Shown here: positions 10,303 through 25,957 of the stretch, in pieces
Position numbering within the stretch: the stretch's first letter is position 1
How the letters are laid out: each line of letters opens with the position of its first letter
IMG/VR virus record: IMGVR_UViG_3300042876_000613
Location: 1 to 31,004 of that record
Source of the DNA: a virus
Length of the DNA: 31,004 nt
Strand: one strand, 5' to 3'
Translations under genes and position numbers: made by a program
The notes under the pieces: generated by a model
Database searches by the model: none
The model's input: only the letters and a program-made list of their open reading frames with translations
What the model was told of the DNA's origin: nothing

Positions 10303-10688
10303 AAAGCGCTAAGACCAAATACTGCCGCACGTTCTTTATCGCCAACCGCTCAATCGCCAGCCAGCTGCCGATCGGTTTCCCGATCAACGATGTGTCATGG
10401 CATAAAATGACTGTTTCTTGCGGTATCTGCCACCAGGATCTGCCTGATCACCACACACGCGGCACGGTCACAAGCCTTATCCCCAGCGTCATCACCATCG
10501 AATCCGTGTCGCTCTGTAAAGATTGCCTCAGCCTGATCCATGGCATCTACCGGTTTCGCTCTGATGGCTCGGTGGAATACACCAACCAGGACGGGCAATG
10601 GGTCAGATCGCAAGGCCGCCGCGTTACCTGGTGGACGCGATTGGTAGATCGAGTAAAGCAGTTAAAACCACTGTGGGAGAACCTGTAA
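10299..10688 (+). CDS. phage protein with CxxC pairs, possible zinc-binding
   Basis: 129 residues. CGICHQDL (about residue 41) and CKDC (about 73) form two Cys pairs ~30 residues apart, as in a zinc finger of the treble-clef or ribbon type. The C-terminal third has GSVEYTNQDGQW and a Trp/Arg-rich basic end. Overlaps the previous gene (ATGA) and the next (TAATG). Unknown function; a nucleic-acid-binding role fits the cluster of small Cys/HTH genes around it. Confidence 0.65.
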   Translation: MKSAKTKYCRTFFIANRSIASQLPIGFPINDVSWHKMTVSCGICHQDLPDHHTRGTVTSLIPSVITIESVSLCKDCLSLIHGIYRFRSDGSVEYTNQDGQWVRSQGRRVTWWTRLVDRVKQLKPLWENL

Positions 10689-12137: not shown

Positions 12138-12836
12138 ATGGTTAAAACAACGACAAAACCTAAGAGAAAGCCCGCTCCGCGCGGTGCCGAAAAATACCGT
12201 GACGCCGAGATCAAGAAGATCCAGATCGCCAAGCGCTGGGCCGTGGATAACTGTGCTGGTTTCGATGACGATATGTATCGCGATCTGCTCCAGGAAGCTG
12301 GCGGTAAACGCAGCTGCACCGATCTCGACTGGCGTGGCCGCATGGCCGCATTGAAGCGTTTTGAAGAGTTGGGCTGGAAACCTTTACCTGCCAAGGGTGC
12401 CCGCCCTGCCGCTGATCGCCCCAGTCGCCGCCTTGCCGATGACGACAAGAGCAAAATGTGCCGTGGCCTCTGGATCGACCTGCACACCCTGGCTGCTGTC
12501 CGGAACAGCAGCGAAAAGGCCCTCAACTCATACGTGCTGCGCATGACCAAAGTGGCGGATCTCTCCTGGTGCAGCGACCAGCAGAAATACGTCGTCATCG
12601 AAGCGCTCAAGGACTGGCGGGCGCGGACGTCTCTGAAACTCATGAAGGAACGAAGCCTCAAAGACTTCCAGTTTGCCATTCCGGATGCGCTTTGCTCCGA
12701 GCTGCAGGTAGTGCTGCGGGCCTTAAGGCTCGGTGAGCAGCCCAAGGACTCCGCCGTTGACCGTCTGGGTGCTGCCGGATACCAGATGCTCTGTGAGTAC
12801 AAAAAATGGGAAGGTGAGGCCTACGCCAGGTTATGA
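12138..12836 (+). CDS. gemA: GemA-like regulatory protein (DUF1018)
   Basis: 232 residues. The first ~80 fit GemA/DUF1018: IKKIQIAKRWAVDN, a DDDMYRDLLQEAGGKRSCTD segment, then RMAALKRFEELGWKP. A second part (LADDDKSKMCRGLWIDLHTL, then STYVLRM-like and QKYVVIEALKDWR) matches the usual C-terminal region. In Mu, GemA (gp16) alters host gene expression and DNA supercoiling state. It sits right before the Mor-type gene, as in Mu, and overlaps it by ATGA. Confidence 0.88.
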   Translation: MVKTTTKPKRKPAPRGAEKYRDAEIKKIQIAKRWAVDNCAGFDDDMYRDLLQEAGGKRSCTDLDWRGRMAALKRFEELGWKPLPAKGARPAADRPSRRLADDDKSKMCRGLWIDLHTLAAVRNSSEKALNSYVLRMTKVADLSWCSDQQKYVVIEALKDWRARTSLKLMKERSLKDFQFAIPDALCSELQVVLRALRLGEQPKDSAVDRLGAAGYQMLCEYKKWEGEAYARL

Positions 12837-13528
12837 CACCTGCTCTCGACTGCATACGTGTCGAAGTGACGCGAGTACTGGAGGCCCGAGGCATCGCGCC
12901 CCGCCGGGCAACGCGCGCCGCCGTGCGGTTGGTACGCGGTCTGTCTCTGGCTGATCGCAAGGCCAGCGAACCATGCGAAACGCTCTACAATATGCGCGAT
13001 CGCATCGCCGAGCTGCTCCAGGATCACGGCATGGATGAAGCAATTTCCGAAGCGGTTGCCGGGCAAATTATCGACTGGCTGCGCAAAAGCTGGGGTGGCA
13101 GGTCTCTGACCCGGCAATGGTGGGGCTTTGTAACCGGCGGTCTGCAGGCCAGCAGTATCGAGGTGGATGGTGAACTATTTCCGATGTTTTCAGACCCGGT
13201 CAAGTCGAGGCGTGGGCGTGAGCTGCGGGCGGTGGTGTGGGCAACTCTGGTATTTTCCCGCTCGGCGGAGAGGGCTATCATCCCCCGGCCTTGCTACCTT
13301 GCTACCGAGATCGCCGCCCTGGTTGAACATGAGTGGGCCACGATCTACGTGCCAAAAGGAGAAGAGATCGACCGGCAGACACGAGACAGAGAGATATACA
13401 AAGCCTTTGACGGTCTGGGCAATATCGACAAGATGACCGCCCTGGGAGTCAGCCAGAGCACGGCGTATGAGGTTTACAAGCGGGTTGCCGCTGAGAAGGT
13501 AAAACGGGAACAGCCGGAGCTGTTTTGA
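12833..13528 (+). CDS. mor: Mor/C-type transcription activator, about twice the usual length
   Basis: 231 residues, against 129 for Mu Mor and 140 for C. The C-terminal ~65 residues are the clearest match: ATIYVPKGEEIDRQTRDREI followed by the helix-turn-helix KMTALGVSQSTAYEVYKRVA. A dimerisation-like segment with ISEAVAGQIIDWLRKSWGG lies near residues 63-86, but is separated from YVPKG by about 75 residues that include a Trp-rich stretch and ELRAVVWATLVFSRSAERAI. There is also an N-terminal extension. Mor activates middle transcription in Mu. Since no C gene is visible, this protein may act directly on the late modules at 16.9 and 25.0 kb. Confidence 0.8.
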   Translation: MTPALDCIRVEVTRVLEARGIAPRRATRAAVRLVRGLSLADRKASEPCETLYNMRDRIAELLQDHGMDEAISEAVAGQIIDWLRKSWGGRSLTRQWWGFVTGGLQASSIEVDGELFPMFSDPVKSRRGRELRAVVWATLVFSRSAERAIIPRPCYLATEIAALVEHEWATIYVPKGEEIDRQTRDREIYKAFDGLGNIDKMTALGVSQSTAYEVYKRVAAEKVKREQPELF

Positions 13529-16793: not shown

Positions 16794-16825
16794 TTGACAA
16801 TCTAACCCCATCACGATATAAGGCG
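16794..16825 (+). promoter_or_regulatory. TTGACA...ATAAGGCG block, first late-control module (promoter-like)
   Basis: TTGACA (16794-16799) is followed after 17 bases by TATAAG (16817-16822), extended to ATAAGGCG (16818-16825). The same block recurs at 24926-24958 with similar bases between. It looks like a sigma70-type promoter, but a terminator begins only 37 bases downstream, so it would make a ~75-base RNA unless the terminator is overridden. Confidence 0.5.
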
Positions 16826-16832
16826 CAAATCA

Positions 16833-16852
16833 TCCTTCGGCTTCGCTCAGGA
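16833..16852 (+). repeat. short dispersed element inserted in the first late-control module
   Basis: TCCTTCGGCTTCGCTCAGGA, nearly identical to 12105-12124. Aligning the two late modules, this piece is extra in the first: the flanks (CAAATCA before, ACCACCAC after) join up to match the AACAAACCACAACACC of the second module. Confidence 0.6.
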
Positions 16853-16861
16853 ACCACCACA

Positions 16862-16901
16862 AAGCCCCTCTCCACCACCCTGGAGCGGGGCTTTTCTTTT
16901 T
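16862..16901 (+). terminator. intrinsic terminator, first late-control module
   Basis: AAGCCCCTCTCCA (16862-16874) pairs with TGGAGCGGGGCTT (16881-16893) over 13 bases with one mismatch and a 6-base loop, followed by TTCTTTTTT-type sequence (16894-16901). It is a strong Rho-independent terminator and would stop transcription from the early/cargo region before the late genes. Confidence 0.85.
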
Positions 16902-16946
16902 ACGACGCCGTAAATGTCACCCTTCCCGTTTTCCCGTACTGTCCCC
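16899..16946 (+). promoter_or_regulatory. palindrome plus conserved box: candidate late promoter, lysis/packaging operon
   Basis: TTTACG-ACGC-CGTAAA (16899-16914) is a 16-base dyad that begins inside the terminator T-run. After 19 bases comes CCGTACTGTCCCC (16934-16946). The same dyad, spacing and box occur at 25021-25068. TACTGT could be a poor -10, and the dyad would then be centred near -43, the position described for Mor on the Mu middle promoter. I infer a Mor-type activator site; no -35 is seen. Confidence 0.65.
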
Positions 16947-16986
16947 ACCACTAGCAACACCAATCTTAGACCGGCAGCATCCCCAC

Positions 16987-17056
16987 CCCTCCCAAGTGGA
17001 GGGCGGCTGACCCCAGGCAGTTCAGGTGACCGGATGACGCCTGAACTGCCCCGGTC
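16987..17056. other. two hairpins in the endolysin leader
   Basis: CCCTCC (16987-16992) pairs with GGAGGG (16998-17003). Then GGCAGTTCAGG (17016-17026) pairs perfectly with CCTGAACTGCC (17040-17050), 13-base loop, with outer GACC/GGTC arms. The second ends a few bases before the GGAG (17063-17066) of the endolysin. Apart from these and the control module, the 16778-17073 gap holds nothing else that I can see. Confidence 0.5.
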
Positions 17057-17073
17057 CATTTCGGAGCCCCGCC

Positions 17074-17775
17074 ATGTCATCATTATTTCCCAAAATCCAC
17101 CCAGCCACCATGGGTAACGAAGGCGGTGCCAGCTTTAACCCTGCCGACCTCGGCAACGTCGTGGTCAATGGCATTGTCACCATCCCCACCTATAAAGGCA
17201 TCGCTCCCGTGTCGCATCCGCAGTGGCGCGGCTGGAAATACATTACCGGCTGCATCGGCCAGCTCAATAAAATGCCCGTCTACGGCACTGAAGCTCACCG
17301 CAACTGGGTTAAGCATCTGAATGGCCTCCTGGCCGACTTTGCCCCTCTCCAGGCCGCCGTGCTCGACTTTTACAAAGCCACGTTCTGGGATGCCAACCGT
17401 CTGGACGAAATTACCGCCGAAGTCGTTGTCGCCTGGATATACGACCACGTTGTCAACGCCGGTCAACGGGGCATCATGTGGGCGCAACTGGCTGCCAACG
17501 CTGATCCGGACGGCAAAATGGGGCCGGTCTCCATTGCCGCCATCAACGCCACCGATCCCGCCGTGCTCCTGGAGCGTATGGAGGATATCGCCGGGGCGTT
17601 CCGCCTCGACCGTGCCCATAACAAGCCGTCACAAATCCAGTTCCTCACATCCTGGCTGCGCCGAGATGGCCAGCCGGAGAGCATCATAGCCATGGTGCGT
17701 CAGGCGGCTGCTGATGGGACGTTGGATGATTCCGAAGTAGCAACACTCAAGGCCGCAATGGCCAAAATCGCATAA
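17074..17775 (+). CDS. endolysin, glycoside hydrolase family 108 type (N-acetylmuramidase)
   Basis: 233 residues. The likely catalytic Glu is E16 in TMGNEGGASF; the EGG motif near the N-terminus is typical of GH108 lysozymes. The central YDHVVNAGQRGIMWAQLAAN fits the family's VNxG...Q segment, and DGKMGPVSIAAINATDP matches the C-terminal peptidoglycan-binding domain (PG_binding_3). The usual DxGGxTNxGIT segment is altered (PADLGNVVVNGIV). It hydrolyses peptidoglycan at lysis. First gene after the late-control module and followed by the holin. Confidence 0.88.
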   Translation: MSSLFPKIHPATMGNEGGASFNPADLGNVVVNGIVTIPTYKGIAPVSHPQWRGWKYITGCIGQLNKMPVYGTEAHRNWVKHLNGLLADFAPLQAAVLDFYKATFWDANRLDEITAEVVVAWIYDHVVNAGQRGIMWAQLAANADPDGKMGPVSIAAINATDPAVLLERMEDIAGAFRLDRAHNKPSQIQFLTSWLRRDGQPESIIAMVRQAAADGTLDDSEVATLKAAMAKIA

Positions 17776-17787
17776 AGGAGATCCACC

Positions 17788-18330
17788 ATGAAAACCCGTA
17801 TCGCCTCGTTCGTTGTACTCATTGTTCTGGCTGCAATAGGCATTGCCTGTGCCGCTGAGGTTGCCGCAACCGTACCGGTCACAACCGCTGCCCCCGCCGC
17901 CCTGGCCACGTTTCTTAAGGATACCGTATTCCCGGTCATAGGCTCTCTGCTGATGGGATTCCTGGCGGTACTCATCAAAAAAATCGCCGATAAATTCCAT
18001 ATTGACGCCCTGGCACAAAAAGACAACTTCCTGACGCAGTTGGCATTTCAGGGCATCACCATGGCTGAAGAAAAGGCCGCGCAACTGGTCGGCTCCAGGG
18101 CCGCGCTGACCGGTAACGAAAAGATGGACGCTGCTATTGCCCACATCCTGAGTGTGATGCCGAAAATCTCTCCGGAACGCGCCAGAGTTGCCGTAGAAGC
18201 CACCCTGGCGCAGATCCCCGGAATTGGTGCAACCGGCGCTCAGTCATTCCAGCTGGGTTCGATTTTTACCGCTCTGGCCGCAACTCCGCAACAGGAGGCC
18301 CCGGCTCCCGCCCCACTCACGGCAGTATGA
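17788..18330 (+). CDS. LLH-type phage holin, probable
   Basis: 180 residues. An N-terminal hydrophobic/signal-like segment ends GIACAA, and a second membrane segment is FPVIGSLLMGFLAVLIKKIA (~50-69). After it comes a cytoplasmic-type helical domain with FQGITMAEEKAAQLVGSRAA and MDAAIAHILSVM, the layout of phage_holin_LLH proteins. Holins open the inner membrane and let endolysin out. Located directly after the endolysin, with an AAGGAG site; overlaps the next start by ATGA. Confidence 0.75.
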   Translation: MKTRIASFVVLIVLAAIGIACAAEVAATVPVTTAAPAALATFLKDTVFPVIGSLLMGFLAVLIKKIADKFHIDALAQKDNFLTQLAFQGITMAEEKAAQLVGSRAALTGNEKMDAAIAHILSVMPKISPERARVAVEATLAQIPGIGATGAQSFQLGSIFTALAATPQQEAPAPAPLTAV

Positions 18331-18548
18331 TCGAGTCGTTATTGCAAATCGTGGCATTCCTGCTCCCCCTGATAATCCAGGGGGTGCAGGCTGTCAGAGA
18401 AAACCAGTCAGGAGCCAATCATGCTGCCAACATTCAAAATTTCCGTAAAACTCTGGCCAAGGATAATCCTGTTGATCGTAGCGCTCTACTTGCTGATCAG
18501 CATGACCGGGTGCGCCTCGCGACTGGTGGTAGTGGACGGCGGGGATGA
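18327..18548 (+). CDS. small membrane protein, possible inner-membrane spanin or antiholin
   Basis: 73 residues with one N-terminal hydrophobic segment (LLQIVAFLLPLIIQGVQAV) and a polar remainder. Coupled to the holin by ATGA. The lipoprotein gene starting at 18421 lies inside its 3' half in another frame (128 bases shared). Rz/Rz1 spanin pairs have this nested layout, but the soluble part here is short for an i-spanin, so an antiholin is an alternative. Confidence 0.5.
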   Translation: MIESLLQIVAFLLPLIIQGVQAVRENQSGANHAANIQNFRKTLAKDNPVDRSALLADQHDRVRLATGGSGRRG

Positions 18549-18636
18549 AGTAAGCGTTAAGAAAGGTCAGCTCGACCAGTTGTATCAGGATAACGAGGCG
18601 TTGTTGAAGGCGTTGGAGGAATGCCGTGCCCGATGA
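18421..18636 (+). CDS. Rz1-like lipoprotein, possible outer-membrane spanin
   Basis: 71 residues with a long signal: basic KISVKLWPR, hydrophobic IILLIVALYLLISM, then a lipobox-like MTGC (Cys ~31) followed by ASRL. The mature part is ~40 residues with heptad-like GQLDQLYQDNEALLKALEEC. Small phage lipoproteins after holin/endolysin genes are usually o-spanins, which fuse the membranes at the last lysis step. It starts inside the preceding gene in a different frame. No proline-rich part as in lambda Rz1. Confidence 0.6.
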   Translation: MLPTFKISVKLWPRIILLIVALYLLISMTGCASRLVVVDGGDEVSVKKGQLDQLYQDNEALLKALEECRAR

Positions 18637-18850
18637 GGTTGATTTCGCCCAGGGCATTGCCGAACAACGCCGGGTTGATGCCCTGGCTGATCAGCAGCGC
18701 AACCGTGAGCCGGATGACAACGACACCGGGGAATGCAGCGACTGTTATAAGGAAATTCCGGAAGAACGGCAGCGGGCCAAGCCCGGTTGCCGCCGTTGCA
18801 TTACGTGCCAAGAAACCTATGAAATTCATTTGCATTGGAGGGCGTTTTGA
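18626..18850 (+). CDS. TraR/DksA-type C4 zinc-finger protein
   Basis: 74 residues from GTG 18626, with GGAGGA upstream. The C-terminal half is the DksA/TraR zinc finger: CSDCYKEIPEERQRAKPGCR then CITCQETYE, giving Cys pairs CxxC...CxxC. The N-terminal helix begins DEVDFAQGIAEQRRVDAL, as in TraR. TraR/DksA proteins bind in the RNA polymerase secondary channel and change promoter choice; phage copies at this place are regular in Mu-like genomes. Overlaps both neighbours. Confidence 0.88.
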   Translation: MPDEVDFAQGIAEQRRVDALADQQRNREPDDNDTGECSDCYKEIPEERQRAKPGCRRCITCQETYEIHLHWRAF

Positions 18851-19281
18851 ATATCGAGCTGTGGAAGTTTGTTTTTCAGATCATACAGGCCGTGGCTACT
18901 GCCGGAGTCGGAATTTATGTGTGGTGGAGTAATCGCGAGAAGGTCACTACAACCAAGTTTTCCGGCCATGACAAACGATTAACGGCGCTGGAAATGGCCC
19001 TCACCAAATTGGCCGAAGCCGACACCAAGGCATCCTCTGCTCTGGAATCGTTAATCGCACACAAAGAATCTGTAGCCAAGGATCTGGAAACCATGCGGCT
19101 TGAATTCAATCAGAAATCACTTTGCGCCAATCATCAGCGCATGGAGAGTAACGACGAAAAGCTGTTCGGCCGCCTGGATAATTTGCATGGCGATATTCGC
19201 GAGTTAAGTGGTGGTGTTAAAGGGCTGATCAAGTCTCTGGAAGTAGTCAATCAGCATCTGTTGTCGAATGGAGGCAAATGA
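18847..19281 (+). CDS. Mu gp25-like protein (DUF2730)
   Basis: 144 residues from TTG 18847 (GGAGGG 5-10 bases upstream; the stop of the previous gene overlaps as TTGA). One N-terminal membrane segment (FVFQIIQAVATAGVGIYVWW) is followed by a long coiled-coil-like part with EMALTKLAEADTKASSALES. This is the DUF2730 layout found before gp26 and gp27 in Mu. Function unknown. Confidence 0.8.
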   Translation: MNIELWKFVFQIIQAVATAGVGIYVWWSNREKVTTTKFSGHDKRLTALEMALTKLAEADTKASSALESLIAHKESVAKDLETMRLEFNQKSLCANHQRMESNDEKLFGRLDNLHGDIRELSGGVKGLIKSLEVVNQHLLSNGGK

Positions 19282-19592
19282 TGAGTGAAGCATTTAAAAA
19301 CCTGATGGCCGAACATCGCCGCTTGGCAATTTTGCGTGCCCTGGCCAGTCCCAAAAGCGGTGGTGAGAGTAATGACTCAATCCTGCAATCAATCGTTGTC
19401 GAGACAGGCATTGCCAGTTCCAGGGATCAGATCAAATCAGCAGTGACCTGGCTTGAAGAGCAAGACCTGGTCACTGTACGTACTCTGGACAGCGGCACCC
19501 TGGTAGCAGCCATCACTCAGCGCGGCATGGACGTGGCCAGCGGACTGTTAACCGTACCGGGCGTCCAGCGCCCGTCCCCTGGTTGCAGATAA
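19281..19592 (+). CDS. Mu gp26-like winged-helix protein
   Basis: 103 residues from ATG 19281, six bases after GGAGG; ATG 19278 is an alternative but very near the site. AEHRRLAILRALA opens the domain, and IKSAVTWLEEQDLVTVRTLD followed by AITQRGMDVASG matches the winged-helix gp26-like family (called VpaChn25_0724 in annotation). The place between gp25-like and gp27-like genes supports this. Function unknown. Overlaps the next gene as TAATG. Confidence 0.8.
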   Translation: MSEAFKNLMAEHRRLAILRALASPKSGGESNDSILQSIVVETGIASSRDQIKSAVTWLEEQDLVTVRTLDSGTLVAAITQRGMDVASGLLTVPGVQRPSPGCR

Positions 19593-20149
19593 TGGGCAAG
19601 CGTCAGGAGCTGGAACTTGAGGCGATCCGCCGCTATGCCGATGGCATGGAGATCCCGGCGATCTCCGAGGCACTCGGCGTAAGTGAAAACTCACTGCGTG
19701 ACTGGAAAAAACGCGCCGGTACCGAGTGGCAGGATGCCCGCACCTCCGCGCGGCAGAGCCAGCTGGTGAGCATGGAGGATGTCGGTTCCCGGCTGCGCCG
19801 CTCGCGAGAGATTGCCAGCCAGTTGATGGGCAGCAGCCGCGACCAGGGCGCGGTCGGTATGGTGCTCAACCAGACGCTCCAAACCATGCTGTACGACCTC
19901 ATGAACCAGATGGATACCGCTGCCATAGATCCGGACGAACTGGGGAAAGTGTCAAAGCTGCTCAACAACATATCCCTGGCCCTTGGCCGCACCGAACAGG
20001 CCGCCAGCATCAATACGAAACGCGAGCGGGAGATCCGGAAGGATGAGCGCGAGAAGGCGGCTGAAACCGCCACTGAGATTGCGCGCCAAGCCGGTGTTTC
20101 ACCGGACACCGTTGATAAGATCTGGAAAGAAGTCTTGAGGATGTCATGA
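19592..20149 (+). CDS. Mu gp27-like protein (DUF3486), probable small terminase subunit
   Basis: 185 residues from ATG 19592. The N-terminus has an HTH (ELEAIRRYADGMEIPAISEA, LGVSENSLRDWKKR) for DNA recognition, followed by a helical oligomerisation region and a charged C-terminus (RDERE-type run, then SPDTVDKIWKEVLRM). DUF3486 proteins precede the large terminase in Mu-like phages and are thought to be the small terminase. ATGA overlap with the large subunit. Confidence 0.85.
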   Translation: MGKRQELELEAIRRYADGMEIPAISEALGVSENSLRDWKKRAGTEWQDARTSARQSQLVSMEDVGSRLRRSREIASQLMGSSRDQGAVGMVLNQTLQTMLYDLMNQMDTAAIDPDELGKVSKLLNNISLALGRTEQAASINTKREREIRKDEREKAAETATEIARQAGVSPDTVDKIWKEVLRMS

Positions 20150-21552
20150 CCCATAAGGGCAACGCCAAAATACTGCCGCCCAATCCGGATGGTCTTTTTC
20201 TGCCATATCAAGAACGGTGGATCAAGGACAAGAGCCGTCTGAAGTTGATGGAAAAATCGCGCCAAATTGGTCTCTCCTGGTCAACCGCCTACCCATGTGT
20301 CGAACGATGCGCAACCCAGGGGGCCAGGCATGACCAATGGGTGTCAAGTCGTGATGAAATACAGGCGAAACTGTTTCTGCTCGACTGTAAAATGTGGGCC
20401 AAAATTTTCAGCATGGCCGCAGAAGACCTTGGCGAAGTGGTCATTGACCAGGATAAAAAGCTGACCGCCCAGGTGTTAAGTTTTGCCACTGGCAAGCGGA
20501 TCTACTCAATGAGCAGTAATCCTGACGCCCAGGCCGGTAAGCGCGGCGGGCGTGTCCTGGATGAATTTGCCCTGGGCAATGATCCACGCATGATGTGGTC
20601 AATCGCATACCCCGGCCTGACCTGGGGCGGCAGCATGGAAGTGGTATCAACACACCGTGGCTCTGAAAACTTTTTTAACCAGTTGATCCGGGAAATCCTG
20701 GAAAAGAAAAACCCGAAGCGGATCAGTCACCATAAAGTAACCCTTCAGAACGCCCTGGAGCAGGGCTTCCTCTTCAAACTTCAACAAGCACTCCCGGAAG
20801 ATGCCGAGCAGCAGGAAATGGATGAGGCCGAATATTTCGACTTTATCAAGAACGGCTGTGCCGACGAAGAATCATTTCTCCAGGAATACATGTGCGTTCC
20901 GGGTGATGACCAATCCGCCTTCCTGGAATATGACCTGATTGCCAAAAGCGAATACAAGGCAAGCGACCAGTGGGAGCTGGACTCACCCGAGGATTGCAAG
21001 GGAAAAATCCTTTTTGGCGGTATCGATATCGGACGGACAAAAGACCTGACCGTGCTGTGGATATTGGAGTTGCTCGGCGATGTTCTCTATACCCGCAAGG
21101 TGATCGAGCTGCGCAATATGAGTAAGCCGGACCAGGAAAAAGTTCTATGGCCATGGGTTAACTGGATGATGCGTACCTGCCAGGATTATAGCGGCCTGGG
21201 TATTGGCTGGGGTGACGATGCCCAATTACGTTACGGCCAGTACCGCTATGAGAACATCACCTTCAGCGCAAAAATAAAAGAATTTTTGGCCTACCCGGTG
21301 CGAGGAAAGATGGAAGATGGCAAATTGCGCATCCCATTTGCACCAGAGGTCCGCGCAGATCTGCGAGCAGTTACCAAAGAGGCCACGCCTACCGGAAACA
21401 TTCGTTTTACCGCTGAACGCTCTGAAAATGGCCATGCCGACCGCTTCTGGGCGCTGGCCCTGGCAATCCATGCCGCAGGCAATTTCTTCGACGACACCGC
21501 TATCCTCTCCGGATCTCCACGGGAGACTACTCACATGATGGAGAACTACTGA
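20146..21552 (+). CDS. large terminase subunit (Mu gp28-like)
   Basis: 468 residues. Walker A-type segment is KSRQIGLSWS (37-46), Walker B with catalytic Glu is RVLDEF (D139/E140), and the nuclease domain begins FGGIDIGRTKDLTVLW (D294). The end of the protein has AERSENGHADRFWALALAIH, the usual last acidic motif of terminase nucleases. It pumps DNA into the prohead and cuts it. In Mu-type phages, packaging starts at a site near the left end, so the terminus region should contain a pac site. Confidence 0.94.
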   Translation: MTHKGNAKILPPNPDGLFLPYQERWIKDKSRLKLMEKSRQIGLSWSTAYPCVERCATQGARHDQWVSSRDEIQAKLFLLDCKMWAKIFSMAAEDLGEVVIDQDKKLTAQVLSFATGKRIYSMSSNPDAQAGKRGGRVLDEFALGNDPRMMWSIAYPGLTWGGSMEVVSTHRGSENFFNQLIREILEKKNPKRISHHKVTLQNALEQGFLFKLQQALPEDAEQQEMDEAEYFDFIKNGCADEESFLQEYMCVPGDDQSAFLEYDLIAKSEYKASDQWELDSPEDCKGKILFGGIDIGRTKDLTVLWILELLGDVLYTRKVIELRNMSKPDQEKVLWPWVNWMMRTCQDYSGLGIGWGDDAQLRYGQYRYENITFSAKIKEFLAYPVRGKMEDGKLRIPFAPEVRADLRAVTKEATPTGNIRFTAERSENGHADRFWALALAIHAAGNFFDDTAILSGSPRETTHMMENY

Positions 21553-21553
21553 T

Positions 21554-23092
21554 ATGAGCAAAGGTATCTGGGTTAGCCCGACACAGTTCGCGGAATTTTC
21601 CGATTCCAACACCATCGACAAATCGGCTCTGACCGAAGAAATTGCTTCCCGCCAAGCTGCCTGGGACTGGACCGGTTTCATGGGACTGCTGCCCGATCCC
21701 GACCCGATTCTGCGCAAGCTGGGCAACGGTGCCGAGATCCTGGAGAGCCTGACCGCCGACGGCCATCTGTGCAGCGTCATTCAGTCCCGCAAACTTGGCA
21801 CCCTTAAAAAAGAGTTTAACTGGCAGCCGGGTACCATCACCGAAGAAAAGGCGAGCAGTCAGGCAAAGCGGCTCAGTGATCAGCTGACAGAAGACCTGGA
21901 ACGGGTCGATCTGTACAACCTGGTCTCGGGGATACTCGACGCACCTTATTACGGCATGGCCCCTATTGAGATCAAATGGCAGCCCGGCGATGGCCGCCTC
22001 CGCATCGTCGATCTGGAAGTCAAGCCCGCACGTTGGTTCGGCTTCAATGATAAAAACGAGCCCCGTTTCGTCAGTACGCAAAACATGTGGGATGGCCAGG
22101 AACTCCCTTTCGGCAAGTTCGTCATCGCCCGCCACTTTCCTACCTATGACAACCCCTATGGCCTGCGCTTGCTCTCCCGCTGCTTCTGGCCGGTGGCCTT
22201 CAAAAAAGGCGGCATTAAGTATTGGGTCACCTTGGCGGAAAAATACGGCATGCCGTTCCTGCTTGGTCAGTACCGCCCCGGAGCGCCCGCGACTGAACAA
22301 CAGGAAATGCTCTCCAAGCTGGTCGGTATGGTGCGCGATGCCTGCGCCGTCATTCCCCAGGGCGGTACTGTGCAAATTCTGGAGTCGGGCAAGGGCACCT
22401 CCACAGCCGAGATCCATTCCGGCCTCAAATCGGCAATGGATGCCGAGATGTCCAAGGTCATCATGGGGCAGACCCTGACCGCCGAGGTCAGCGACAAGGG
22501 TGGCAGCCGTGCCCAGGGACAGGTCCACGAGGATATCCTGGAAGACTTCCGCCAGGGAGACCAAACCCTGGTCAAAACCGTCATGGAAGAAATCGCCTGG
22601 CTCTATGGCCAGGTCAATGCTCCCGGTGTACCAACACCCAAGTTTACCTGGTTCGAAGAGGATAACCCCAATACCGAGACCGCCACCCGCGATAAAACTC
22701 TCAAAGAGACCGGGGTCAAGTTCCGCAAGAGCTACTACACGCGCACCTATCGCCTGCAGGAAGATGACTTCGACCTGGAGGGAGAGCCGCAGCCTCCTCC
22801 GGAAGACAAGACATCGAATGCCGAGTTTGCCGAAAAAACCGCGCCCGAATTCACCCCTGCCCAGCAGAGCATCGAAGGGCTGAAAAAAGCCGCTACTCAG
22901 GACTGGCAGCCGATGATGGACCCGCTGCTTAACCCGGTGCTCGACATCATTCACGGCTCCAACAGCTATGAGGAAGCGCTTGCGCGTCTGGCCGACGCCT
23001 ACGACAGCATGGATGAAACAGCCCTGGCCGAAGTACTGGCACAGGCATGTTTTGCCGCCCAGACGGTCGGTCGTATCGACAGCACACCGTGA
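21554..23092 (+). CDS. portal protein (Mu gp29-like, DUF935)
   Basis: 512 residues, the normal length. Family segments visible: WDWTGFMGLLPDPDPILRKL, SAQKRLSDQL-like linker, APYYGMAPIEIKWQPGDGRL, then GQTLTAEVSDKGGSRAQGQV and HEDILEDFRQGDQTLVKTVM, which correspond to the well-conserved GQTLT...GSxAxxxVHxxV region. The portal forms the dodecameric ring through which DNA passes. It begins 1 base after the terminase stop and overlaps the next gene by GTGA. Confidence 0.94.
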   Translation: MSKGIWVSPTQFAEFSDSNTIDKSALTEEIASRQAAWDWTGFMGLLPDPDPILRKLGNGAEILESLTADGHLCSVIQSRKLGTLKKEFNWQPGTITEEKASSQAKRLSDQLTEDLERVDLYNLVSGILDAPYYGMAPIEIKWQPGDGRLRIVDLEVKPARWFGFNDKNEPRFVSTQNMWDGQELPFGKFVIARHFPTYDNPYGLRLLSRCFWPVAFKKGGIKYWVTLAEKYGMPFLLGQYRPGAPATEQQEMLSKLVGMVRDACAVIPQGGTVQILESGKGTSTAEIHSGLKSAMDAEMSKVIMGQTLTAEVSDKGGSRAQGQVHEDILEDFRQGDQTLVKTVMEEIAWLYGQVNAPGVPTPKFTWFEEDNPNTETATRDKTLKETGVKFRKSYYTRTYRLQEDDFDLEGEPQPPPEDKTSNAEFAEKTAPEFTPAQQSIEGLKKAATQDWQPMMDPLLNPVLDIIHGSNSYEEALARLADAYDSMDETALAEVLAQACFAAQTVGRIDSTP

Positions 23093-23907
23093 TTGATCAC
23101 TCTCTCGACATAGTCTCTCTGCCTCCGGAGCAGGCCATTGCCTGGTTCAAAGCCAAGGGCTTTCAGTTCTCCTGGGACTGGCAGGATATGTGGCAGGAAG
23201 TGCATGTCAGTAAATTTACCGTGGCCAAGGTCACCAAGGCCGATATTCTCCAGGATATATTTGACGCCCTGAGCAAGGCACAGACCGAAGGCACAACCTT
23301 CGAACAGTTCAAGAAGGATCTGATACCACTGCTCCAGCAAAAGGGATGGTGGGGTAAGCAGGACGCCGTCAACGTCACTACCGGTGAAATTCGGGAAGGT
23401 GTTCAACTCGGTTCCCCGCGTCGCCTGCAAACCATCTTCAACGTCAACGTTCAGACCTCGCTCCAGGTCGGCCACTATCAGACCATGACTGATCCGGATG
23501 TACTGAAAGCCCGGCCATACTGGCGTTACTCTGCTGTGATGGATGGCAAAACGCGGCCCATGCACAAGGTGTGGCACAACATGCTACTCCCCGCCGACTC
23601 TATCTGGTGGGACACCCATTATCCGCCCAACGGCTGGAACTGCCGCTGCACGGTGGTATCGATGTCGATGCGCGAAATCACGCGGGACGGTCTACGCATA
23701 TCAGATATGCCAGCTACCAACCTGCGCCCCTGGACCAACCCGAAAACAGGCGTAATCCTGTACGTTCCCGAGGGGATCGATCCAGGATGGGCATACAACC
23801 CCGGTAAAGATCCTGTCGGCCATGCCCTGGCCGTAGCCAAGGACAGCGCCTCCGGAATGCACCCGCAGATTGCGTGGAAACTGATGAACGATCTGGGAGA
23901 AGCATAA
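23089..23907 (+). CDS. head morphogenesis / minor head protein (Mu gpF-like, SPP1 gp7 family)
   Basis: 272 residues from GTG 23089, which overlaps the portal stop; an ATG at 23047 would add 14 residues that look like portal shadow. The start LPPEQAIAWFKAKGFQFSWD is typical of gpF. The family motif is complete: YSAVMDGKTRPMHKVWHNML, then IWWDTHYPPNGWNCRCTVVS. The protein acts inside the early prohead, near the portal. Start choice is uncertain because neither start has a strong ribosome site. Confidence 0.92.
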   Translation: MIDHSLDIVSLPPEQAIAWFKAKGFQFSWDWQDMWQEVHVSKFTVAKVTKADILQDIFDALSKAQTEGTTFEQFKKDLIPLLQQKGWWGKQDAVNVTTGEIREGVQLGSPRRLQTIFNVNVQTSLQVGHYQTMTDPDVLKARPYWRYSAVMDGKTRPMHKVWHNMLLPADSIWWDTHYPPNGWNCRCTVVSMSMREITRDGLRISDMPATNLRPWTNPKTGVILYVPEGIDPGWAYNPGKDPVGHALAVAKDSASGMHPQIAWKLMNDLGEA

Positions 23908-23910
23908 ACC

Positions 23911-24480
23911 ATGTCAGGGTTTGCGATCAGGCTCGACATACAGGATGGCCAGGCAAAGGCGATTGTCGTTGACCTCCGGCAGCGGGGTGAAAATACCACC
24001 CCGGTCATGAAGATCATCGGCGAGATTGGCCGAACCTCGATTGTCAAAAACTTTGAATCAGAGGGGCGGCCTACTCCCTGGAAGAAGTCAAAGCGGGCGC
24101 TGAAGGATGGCGGCCTCACCCTCACCAAAAGCCGCCGCTTGGCAAAATCAATTGTATCGAAATCGAGCCGGGATAACGTCGATATCGGCACCAACGTGGT
24201 CTATGCCCGCATTCACAATCAGGGCGGCGACATCAAATCCCCGGCCCGCGAGCGGGCGCTACGCTTTGGTGGTATTCATCCGGCGAGGATGGGAGAGAAC
24301 AGTGTCGGGCCTGGGCGTCCGACAAGAAGTTTCGCCAGTAAAAGGAATGCACAATTCGGAATGCGCGTCCAAGGCAAGGCCTATATCATCCGCATGCCCA
24401 AACGTGAGTTCATGCTGCTGCAGCCGGAAGATTGGATCGAGATCCGCGACGCTTTGACGGAATACCTGGCAGGGAGGTAA
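23911..24480 (+). CDS. virion morphogenesis protein (Mu gpG-like)
   Basis: 189 residues. NFESEGRPTPWKKSKRALKD followed by a short TLTKSRRLAKSIV segment and VVYARIHNQGG is the conserved part of the phage virion morphogenesis family (gpG of Mu, related to P2 gpS tail completion). The C-terminal part is IRMPKREFMLLQPEDWIEIR. It probably acts in head-tail joining. Three bases after gpF, and followed by a hairpin. Confidence 0.9.
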   Translation: MSGFAIRLDIQDGQAKAIVVDLRQRGENTTPVMKIIGEIGRTSIVKNFESEGRPTPWKKSKRALKDGGLTLTKSRRLAKSIVSKSSRDNVDIGTNVVYARIHNQGGDIKSPARERALRFGGIHPARMGENSVGPGRPTRSFASKRNAQFGMRVQGKAYIIRMPKREFMLLQPEDWIEIRDALTEYLAGR

Positions 24481-24491
24481 CCCCTCCCCCG

Positions 24492-24512
24492 CCTCCCCTT
24501 AATCAGGGGAGG
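24492..24512 (+). terminator. hairpin after gpG, possible terminator
   Basis: CCTCCCCT (24492-24499) pairs with AGGGGAGG (24505-24512), 5-base loop, followed by AGCTTATTCTTTC, a weak T-rich stretch. Similar CCTCC/GGAGG hairpins lie at 27852 and 30399. Confidence 0.5.
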
Positions 24513-24623
24513 AGCTTATTCTTTCAAATTTGCCCTGTGAGCGCTGCAAGGTTCAAAACGGCACTGACCCTCGCGGGCAACTCCGTTCGCGGCACACGCG
24601 GAAAGTTAAAGACAGTTTTAAGA

Positions 24624-24643
24624 CGGTTGTGATTATACAACCG
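24624..24643. promoter_or_regulatory. inverted repeat upstream of the Acb2-like gene, possible operator
   Basis: CGGTTGT (24624-24630) and ACAACCG (24637-24643) flank GATTAT, giving a 20-base dyad whose centre carries a TTATAC that could be a -10. It lies 28 bases before the GTG start. The surrounding 24513-24671 region is otherwise without recognisable genes. Could equally be a short hairpin. Confidence 0.35.
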
Positions 24644-24671
24644 GCACTCAATATCTCGAAAGGAATCACCT

Positions 24672-24920
24672 GTGACAAAAGATACCATTGAAAACAACTT
24701 CCGCTATCACAAACCACAAGAAGGGCAGCCTGAAAAATATGAAGCAATTCGGGAAAAAGCCAAAGAGCTGGCATACCTGTTGGCTGATCTGTGTCCGGTC
24801 AGCCGTGAAAAGTCATTGGCCATAACCAACCTGGAACAATCTGTAATGTGGGCGAATGCTTCTATTGCACGTAATTACATGCCGAAGAGTAACAGTCCTG
24901 ATATCAATCCTGTTGAATAA
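24672..24920 (+). CDS. acb2: Acb2-like protein (Acb2/Tad1 hairpin domain), probable anti-CBASS
   Basis: 82 residues from a GTG start (GAAAGGAA upstream). The whole length fits the Acb2 hairpin domain as I remember it: NFRYHKP (9-15), a YEAIREKAKELAYLLADLCP helix (23-42), SREKSLAITNLE (44-55) and MWANASIARN (59-68). Acb2 proteins form hexamers that sequester cyclic di- and trinucleotides and so block CBASS immunity. Transposable Pseudomonas phages such as JBD67 carry acb2 within the structural genes, as here. Nucleotide-binding residues were not checked by alignment. Confidence 0.78.
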   Translation: MTKDTIENNFRYHKPQEGQPEKYEAIREKAKELAYLLADLCPVSREKSLAITNLEQSVMWANASIARNYMPKSNSPDINPVE

Positions 24921-24925
24921 CACGA

Positions 24926-24958
24926 TTGACATCTCCCCACTGATCATGACATAAGGCG
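24926..24958 (+). promoter_or_regulatory. TTGACA...ATAAGGCG block, second late-control module (promoter-like)
   Basis: TTGACA (24926-24931) and ATAAGGCG (24951-24958) repeat the block at 16794, with one extra base between them. The hexamer in -10 position is ACATAA or CATAAG, weaker than in the first copy. It starts five bases after the Acb2-like stop. Confidence 0.5.
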
Positions 24959-24986
24959 AAAACAAACCACAACACCTCCCCCACTG

Positions 24987-25023
24987 CGCCCTTCTCCTTT
25001 TTTGGAGAGGGGCGTTTCTTTTT
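24987..25023 (+). terminator. intrinsic terminator, second late-control module
   Basis: CGCCCTTCTCC (24987-24997) pairs with GGAGAGGGGCG (25004-25014), one wobble, 6-T loop, followed by TTTCTTTTT (25015-25023). It separates the lysis/packaging/Acb2 unit from the head genes. Confidence 0.85.
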
Positions 25024-25068
25024 ACGGCGTCGTAAATGCTACCCCCACTGTTTTACCGTACTGTCCCC
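25021..25068 (+). promoter_or_regulatory. palindrome plus conserved box: candidate late promoter, head operon
   Basis: TTTACG-GCGT-CGTAAA (25021-25036), again touching the terminator T-run, then 19 bases, then CCGTACTGTCCCC (25056-25068). The box is preceded by GTTTT in both copies. The protease gene starts at 25085. Probable activator site and -10 region as described for the copy at 16899. Confidence 0.65.
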
Positions 25069-25084
25069 CATCAAGGAGATGGCT

Positions 25085-25957
25085 ATGGATAACTGGATTG
25101 AGATTTTCAAGGCTGGCACGCACATCGACAGCAAAGGGCGAAAACGCACCTGGACTACGGATGATCTGGACAAGATGGTTGCCAAGTATAACCCGTCCGA
25201 CCATGAAGCTCCGGCGGTGATCGGCCATCCAAAAGACAATCACCCCGCCTACGGCTGGGCCTCTGAACTCAAGAGGGTGGGCGATAAGCTCATGGCAAAA
25301 TTCAAACAGGTAGTCCCCGAATTTTCCGCCATGGTGGAACAAGGAATGTTCAAAAAGCGCAGCATCCGGGTGCTTCCTGACGGTTCGCTCGGTCATGTTG
25401 GTTTCTTAGGCGCGGTCCCCCCGGCAATCAAGGGGTTGAAGGATATAGAGTTTGCCCAGGATGAAGAAAGTTTCGATTACGACTACAGCGAGGAGGAAGG
25501 ACAAATGGACGCAAGGGTAAAAGAGTTAGAGGATCAGCTGGTCGCTGAAAAGCAGAAGACGACCAAACTGGAAACGGAGCGCAACGATTTCAAGAGCAAG
25601 GCTGAAAAAACTGAGGCCGACTTTTCCGAGGCACAGAAAAAAGGCCGGCACAAGGAGATTGCCGATTTTGTTGAGGCCGGGATCAAGGCCGGCAAGATTC
25701 TCCCCTCATGGAAGAACCAGGGGATGGTCGATTTCATGACGGCGCTGGATGACCAGGGAGGCGAATACGAGTTTTCCGAGGGTAAGAAACAAAGTTCACT
25801 CGACTGGTTCAAGAACTTTATTTCCGACTTCAGCTCACATCCGTTGTTTAAGGAGATGGTCAAGCCGGAGAATGAGGGTGACCAGAAAAACGCCGATTTC
25901 GCCGCCGACGAGAAATTGGCAGAAGAGATGGTCTCATACGTGTCGCCGTCAAAGTAA
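25085..25957 (+). CDS. head maturation protease with C-terminal scaffold (Mu gpI-like)
   Basis: 290 residues from ATG 25085, six bases after AGGAG; the ATG at 25079 overlaps the ribosome site. The protease part (1-~125) has AGTHIDSKGRKRTWTTDDLD, HEAPAVIGHPKDNHPAYGWA, FKKRSIRVLPDG and GHVGFLGAVPPAIKGL, all hallmarks of the Mu I protease. Residues ~140-190 are a charged coiled coil (VKELEDQLVAEKQKTTKLET), the scaffold part. It guides prohead assembly and then cleaves head proteins. First gene after the second late module. Confidence 0.93.
   Translation: MDNWIEIFKAGTHIDSKGRKRTWTTDDLDKMVAKYNPSDHEAPAVIGHPKDNHPAYGWASELKRVGDKLMAKFKQVVPEFSAMVEQGMFKKRSIRVLPDGSLGHVGFLGAVPPAIKGLKDIEFAQDEESFDYDYSEEEGQMDARVKELEDQLVAEKQKTTKLETERNDFKSKAEKTEADFSEAQKKGRHKEIADFVEAGIKAGKILPSWKNQGMVDFMTALDDQGGEYEFSEGKKQSSLDWFKNFISDFSSHPLFKEMVKPENEGDQKNADFAADEKLAEEMVSYVSPSK

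Follow-up and report, generated by a model that had tools for sequence, protein, structure and literature searches.

What is the function of a non-coding block that a virus genome carries twice, some 8 kb apart, each time just ahead of a group of genes? The question is raised by a 31,004-base IMG/VR virus record, the whole of which was analysed here (hereafter the window). Its gene order is Mu-like: a repressor region, a transposase, gemA, a Mor-family gene and then a middle stretch mostly without recognised functions come first, and downstream follow an endolysin, the small and large terminase, a portal, a minor head protein, a tail completion protein and an Acb2-like gene, and after these a protease, a decoration protein and the major head protein. 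One block precedes the lysis/packaging operon, which begins with the endolysin (GH108 family; 17074-17775, forward strand; PF05838 5e-11, PHROG 315), and the other precedes the head maturation protease/scaffold, the equivalent of Mu gene I (25079-25957, forward strand; PHROG 976, 7e-71), whose start is likely the ATG at 25085, preceded by AAGGAG at 25073-25078. We refer to the two as the lysis and the protease module. In passing, the last gene of the lysis/packaging operon (24672-24920) encodes an 82-aa protein with an Acb2/Tad1 hairpin domain (PF24729, 5.5e-24), likely an anti-CBASS nucleotide sponge, and the middle region ahead of that operon holds a YopX-family phage protein (15816-16175; PF09643).

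The first-pass annotation had described the same ordered parts in both non-coding regions, and all of them are where it placed them, their order preserved in a pairwise alignment: TTGACA (16794-16799 and 24926-24931), ATAAGGCG (16818-16825 and 24951-24958), an intrinsic terminator, a dyad (16899-16914 and 25021-25036, forward strand) and a conserved box, CCGTACTGTCCCC (16934-16946 and 25056-25068, forward strand). Exactly 19 bases separate dyad and box in both copies, as had been claimed, and the separation given as 8.1 kb is 8,122 bp for dyad and box and 8,132 bp for TTGACA, the two values differing because the transcribed stretch is longer in the first copy. With up to two mismatches allowed, neither the dyad nor CCGTACTGTCCCC has a further match in the window, which holds this single pair of dyads. 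Compared with the upstream 16.6 kb, the second module gave a top ungapped self-match score of 44, against a maximum of 16 (mean 12.6, sd 1.2) for 60 dinucleotide shuffles of the same module; the twin match is far above chance. In nearly all relatives examined, nothing 8 kb upstream matches the region before the protease to a comparable degree without gaps, and the strength of the match in the window is therefore a real feature.

Is the likeness anything more than shared ancestry? A recent duplication, with the common parts inherited and without function, would account for the 66-bp ungapped match between the two window copies. Relatives bear directly on this point. A search with the protease gave about 60 related loci, to which pattern searches added L096, L097, L099, L101, L102, L103 and L129; the module is present in eight uncultivated relatives, and both positions are occupied in six records, the window included. 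The parts stand in the same order in L017, L096, L097, L099, L101 and L129, and the twins are spaced 11.8 kb apart in L096, 7.9 kb in L101 and 7.8 kb in L097, L103 and L129, the lysis modules of L097 and L103 being identical. L017, whose protease is 68% identical, has a full module before its lysis operon, with the dyad TTGAAGCGCTTCAA and TATTAT in place of TACTGT, and the same dyad is found again ahead of its protease. L102 is a more divergent member in which dyad and -10 are not confidently assignable. Other phages thus have the twin layout with a different dyad, conserved spacing and diverged linkers, and by these comparisons the duplication reading appears largely refuted; we consider it very improbable. 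The first-pass suggestion of searching for the dyad plus box proved unproductive in IMG/VR: the exact dyad-plus-TACTGT pattern returned 11 stretches, none showing the module, and we judged them to be chance matches in which the module is absent apart from its spelling. BLASTN of both modules against an annotated phage collection likewise gave no meaningful match.

What, then, are the dyad and the box? The Mor site in the Mu middle promoter Pm is 16 bp long, with two 5-bp inverted repeats around a G/C-rich hexanucleotide (PMC4390567); it is centred at -43.5, takes the place of the -35 element and is adjoined on its upstream side by a proximal UP subsite (PMC4390567, PMC4287176). Both window dyads, TTTAC-GACGCC-GTAAA in the lysis module and TTTAC-GGCGTC-GTAAA in the protease module, have this make-up (16 bp, 5-bp arms, a G/C-rich 6-nt centre, the place of the -35) and are predicted to be Mor-type activator sites; in relatives the dyad is mostly TTTGAA-N4-TTCAAA. 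The box, CCG-TACTGT-CCCC in both modules, is best read as a -10 element (TANNNT) whose CC(G) and C-rich flanks are conserved, because its distance from the dyad is constant, at 23 bp in 10 of 10 relatives' sites measured, the two sites of the window having 22 bp. Relatives show TATTAT, TAATAT, TAGTAT, TACTAT, TAATGT or TAGTGT at the same fixed distance. A GTAC core for the box was considered and then dropped, the TANNNT hexamer being preferred. The predicted -10 elements of the late promoter, P2, are thus TACTGT at 16937-16942 (Plys equivalent), with a start near 16949, and at 25059-25064 (PI equivalent), with a start near 25071. TACTGT begins 30.5 bp past the dyad centre, the corresponding figure being 31.5 in nine relatives' sites, i.e. 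the geometry is that of a Mor-dependent promoter. Two points count against a late promoter: the window gap is one base short of that in relatives, and the GC-rich flanks CCG and CCCC need more than a -10 to explain them.

The candidate activator is encoded at 12833-13528 (forward strand), directly after gemA (12138-12836), the families recorded for this entry being PF08765 (3.8e-16, above the cut-off) and PF06252. Its product scores 59.5 bits against PF08765, for which the cut-off is 24.9, and with its gemA neighbour it is assigned to the Mor family; it also matches the Mu Mor structure 1RR7 (phmmer 1.6e-5) and, weakly, Mu C. It is the only Mor-family gene in the window. The protein is 231 aa long and its profile match is split, profile positions 5-48 aligning to residues 49-92 and positions 31-107 to residues 156-231, a pattern that points to an inserted or partly repeated stretch. 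The activator is unusual in these respects, and one can be less sure of how it binds than in the case of Mu Mor. Searches with peptide patterns returned no relatives of this Mor-like protein. How might one connect protein and site? In phages with TTGAA..TTCAA dyads the recognition-helix region of the Mor-family protein reads TERQIY or SERQIY; in L015, with the dyad ATGAAACGTTTCAA, it reads TVRQAY; and in the window, with TTTAC..GTAAA, the recognition helix contains SQSTAY. This co-variation of helix and dyad is the best evidence at hand that the Mor-family protein reads the dyad, and it lends indirect support to a dependence of late transcription on the Mor/C-type protein.

Mu itself offers the closest comparison. 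In the Mu record AF083977 a terminator (10383-10406) followed by a late promoter (10403-10469) stands ahead of the endolysin, and a second terminator (17908-17953) followed by a late promoter (17977-18043) stands ahead of protease I, the two sites being 7,574 bp apart; Mu C activates Plys, PI, PP and Pmom (PMC4461284). The window modules occupy the same locations as Plys and PI, before the endolysin and protease I operons and about 8 kb apart, and share with them a terminator just upstream, a dyad replacing the -35 and, by prediction, host polymerase and a Mor/C-family activator. They differ from Plys and PI in the sequence of the dyad, in an extra sigma-70-type promoter before each terminator and in the regulators, since the window has one Mor gene, and no separate C gene or middle promoter of the kind that makes up the three-step Mu cascade (Mor, then C) was recognised in it. 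Mu Pm, for which the activator is Mor, resembles the modules in its dyad (16 bp, 5-bp arms, a G/C-rich hexanucleotide), in the distance of about 31 bp from dyad centre to -10, in a proximal UP subsite that adjoins the dyad on its upstream side, the place of which would here be taken by the T-run of the terminator, and in an activator gene that comes after gemA; unlike Pm, the window site would drive late operons, exists in two copies and is paired with an activator that has an inserted stretch.

By the features tested, the modules classify as predicted Mor/C-dependent promoters. The first-pass annotation had proposed that a Mor-type activator bound to the dyad starts the late operons, and at the sequence level this proposal stands: a Mor gene follows gemA, the dyad has the layout of a Mor site, the -10 lies at Mor geometry, the modules sit where Plys and PI do, and dyad and recognition helix vary together in relatives. 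We put at roughly 0.88 the probability that both modules are Plys- and PI-equivalent late promoters driven by the 12833-13528 product. A dimer of this protein would bind the 16-bp dyad, standing in for a -35 element, and host sigma-70 RNA polymerase would initiate at TACTGT, transcribing the lysis/packaging operon from about 16949 and the head operon from about 25071; the terminator ahead of P2 would stop transcription arriving from the operon before it, and its T-run might in addition be used by the alpha C-terminal domain of the polymerase. Mu already provides this architecture, terminators included; what appears new is the promoter-terminator tandem, of which we found no description in the open-access literature.

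That additional layer begins with the TTGACA block, which the first-pass annotation called promoter-like and which is indeed a conserved sigma-70-type promoter feature kept across relatives. In the lysis module the promoter, P1 (16794-16822, forward strand), is TTGACA-N17-TATAAG followed by a GGCG discriminator, at the lysis position of seven phages; in the protease module (24926-24955, forward strand) it is TTGACA-N18-CATAAG with an extended -10, TGA, at 24947-24949, as in protease-type modules. Against the sigma-70 hexamers and a spacing of 17 +/- 1, the lysis P1 agrees at 11 of 12 positions with N17, and the protease P1 at 10 of 12 with N18 and a TGn. Across the phages, lysis modules have TTGACA-N17-TATAAG without TG (N18 in L129), and protease modules have TTGACA-N17/18-CATAAG, every one of them with TGn directly ahead of the hexamer, i.e. 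the extended -10 accompanies the hexamers that have lost their first T. On these grounds we read the TTGACA/ATAAGGCG block as a predicted, conserved sigma-70-type promoter. Hexamers and a discriminator of P1 type also precede tRNA-Glu genes in 5 of 395 Desulfobacterota genomes (L104-L108); these promoters resemble P1 in reading TTGACA-N17-TATAAGGCG, and differ from it in having another spacer sequence and neither terminator nor activator site.

P1 is followed by the intrinsic terminator identified by folding (16861-16898 in the lysis module, 24986-25020 in the protease module, forward strand), and a hairpin is predicted in 13 of 13 modules folded. The first-pass annotation held that the stems differ while their position is kept; the position is indeed kept, and the stems turn out to be homologous rather than unrelated, with an inner CTCC..GGAG retained and compensatory changes in the outer pairs. 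Transcription from P1 would yield an RNA of about 45-70 nt that stops at the terminator, the predicted length being about 72 nt for the lysis module, 46-50 nt in 10 of the 13 modules and 57-72 nt in the other three. The dyad starts in, or right at, the T-run in most modules, and the predicted stopping point thereby overlaps the activator site. Is P1 needed? P1 and terminator stand only ahead of the lysis operon in L017, and L015, L016 and L075 have no P1 and terminator ahead of the protease; P1 is therefore dispensable for this type of promoter.

Why keep a promoter that transcribes only into a terminator beside an activator site? We tentatively favour gating, without considering it likely: a terminating polymerase would briefly cover the activator site and hold P2 off until the activator is abundant. 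Gating would give a Mu-like group with a two-promoter late switch, an equally tentative idea, in which a constitutive, tRNA-like promoter firing into a terminator sets the threshold for late expression, and in which activator and site change together between phages and the frame is kept.

The anatomy also recalls the lambdoid PR'-tR' unit (Q) and the Pseudomonas PalpB-tB unit (AlpA), in which a promoter likewise runs into a close intrinsic terminator before lysis or late genes. Could P1 and terminator be an antitermination switch of this type, a second late route besides P2, with a phage factor that binds between the -35 and -10 of P1, loads onto polymerase and crosses the terminator? The arrangement matches phage 21 PR'-tR' and PalpB-tB, and conservation, as mean pairwise identity, is higher in the spacer of lysis-type P1 (0.73) than in the gap from dyad to -10 (0.50). 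The lysis and protease P1 spacers are unlike each other, with an identity of 0.41 and no shared binding element, and it is therefore not obvious that one factor reads both. The window has, unlike the Q and AlpA units, an activator-dependent promoter past the terminator, which antitermination would leave redundant; no relative of Q or AlpA was recognised, and the phyletic profile of gene families common to P1 phages and absent from P1-less ones returned lysis-cassette genes only; and the first transcribed bases have no clear -10-like pause site. Antitermination, weakened by the unlike spacers and the want of a candidate gene, seems to us improbable.

A functional small RNA is, in our judgement, about as doubtful. 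Promoter, terminator and a near-constant length are conserved, and the initial bases AAAT-ACC recur across lysis modules; against this, the body of the RNA is mostly terminator hairpin and variable in sequence, the lysis and protease types have different 5' ends, and the module RNA has no Rfam match. P1 and terminator might instead be an empty moron, a promoter and terminator once inserted as a cassette and now a neutral remnant that travels with the lysis cassette, since morons are genes flanked by a promoter and a terminator (PMC4378225) and the occurrence of the unit follows the lysis genes. The two positions are nevertheless kept in six records in which the sequence between the elements has diverged, every protease module makes up for its weaker -10 with a TGn, and stem changes are compensatory; we regard a neutral remnant, too, as unlikely. 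Polymerase recycling or effects on DNA merit similarly little credence, as does some other role.

These comparisons extend late control of the Mu type to uncultivated phages associated with Desulfobacterota, and they supply a natural series of paired changes in activator helix and operator. Additionally, they expose a conserved extra promoter-terminator layer that was matched to no described phage in the searches made.

Two further sequence elements deserve mention. The first, TTTAAAC-N3-GTTTAAAC-N2-GGTT, recurs in about 17 related loci directly upstream of the protease or the preceding gene (for example, L030:3860, L073:1946 and L021:12818). We considered TTTAAAC-N3-GTTTAAAC as the relatives' activator site before the protease and rejected it, as its distance to the start codon is often too short and the true dyad is a different element. 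In Mu, TTTTTAAACCGGTATTTAACGGT, near 17912 of the record, lies about 33 bp from the cut of the strong gyrase site, and the element might mark gyrase sites in these phages. The second is a strong leader hairpin at 17016-17050 (GGCAGTTCAGG / CCTGAACTGCC), in the stretch that separates the predicted late start from the first gene; hairpins of different sequence recur in L096, L097, L129, L015, L016, L075 and the Mu PI leader.
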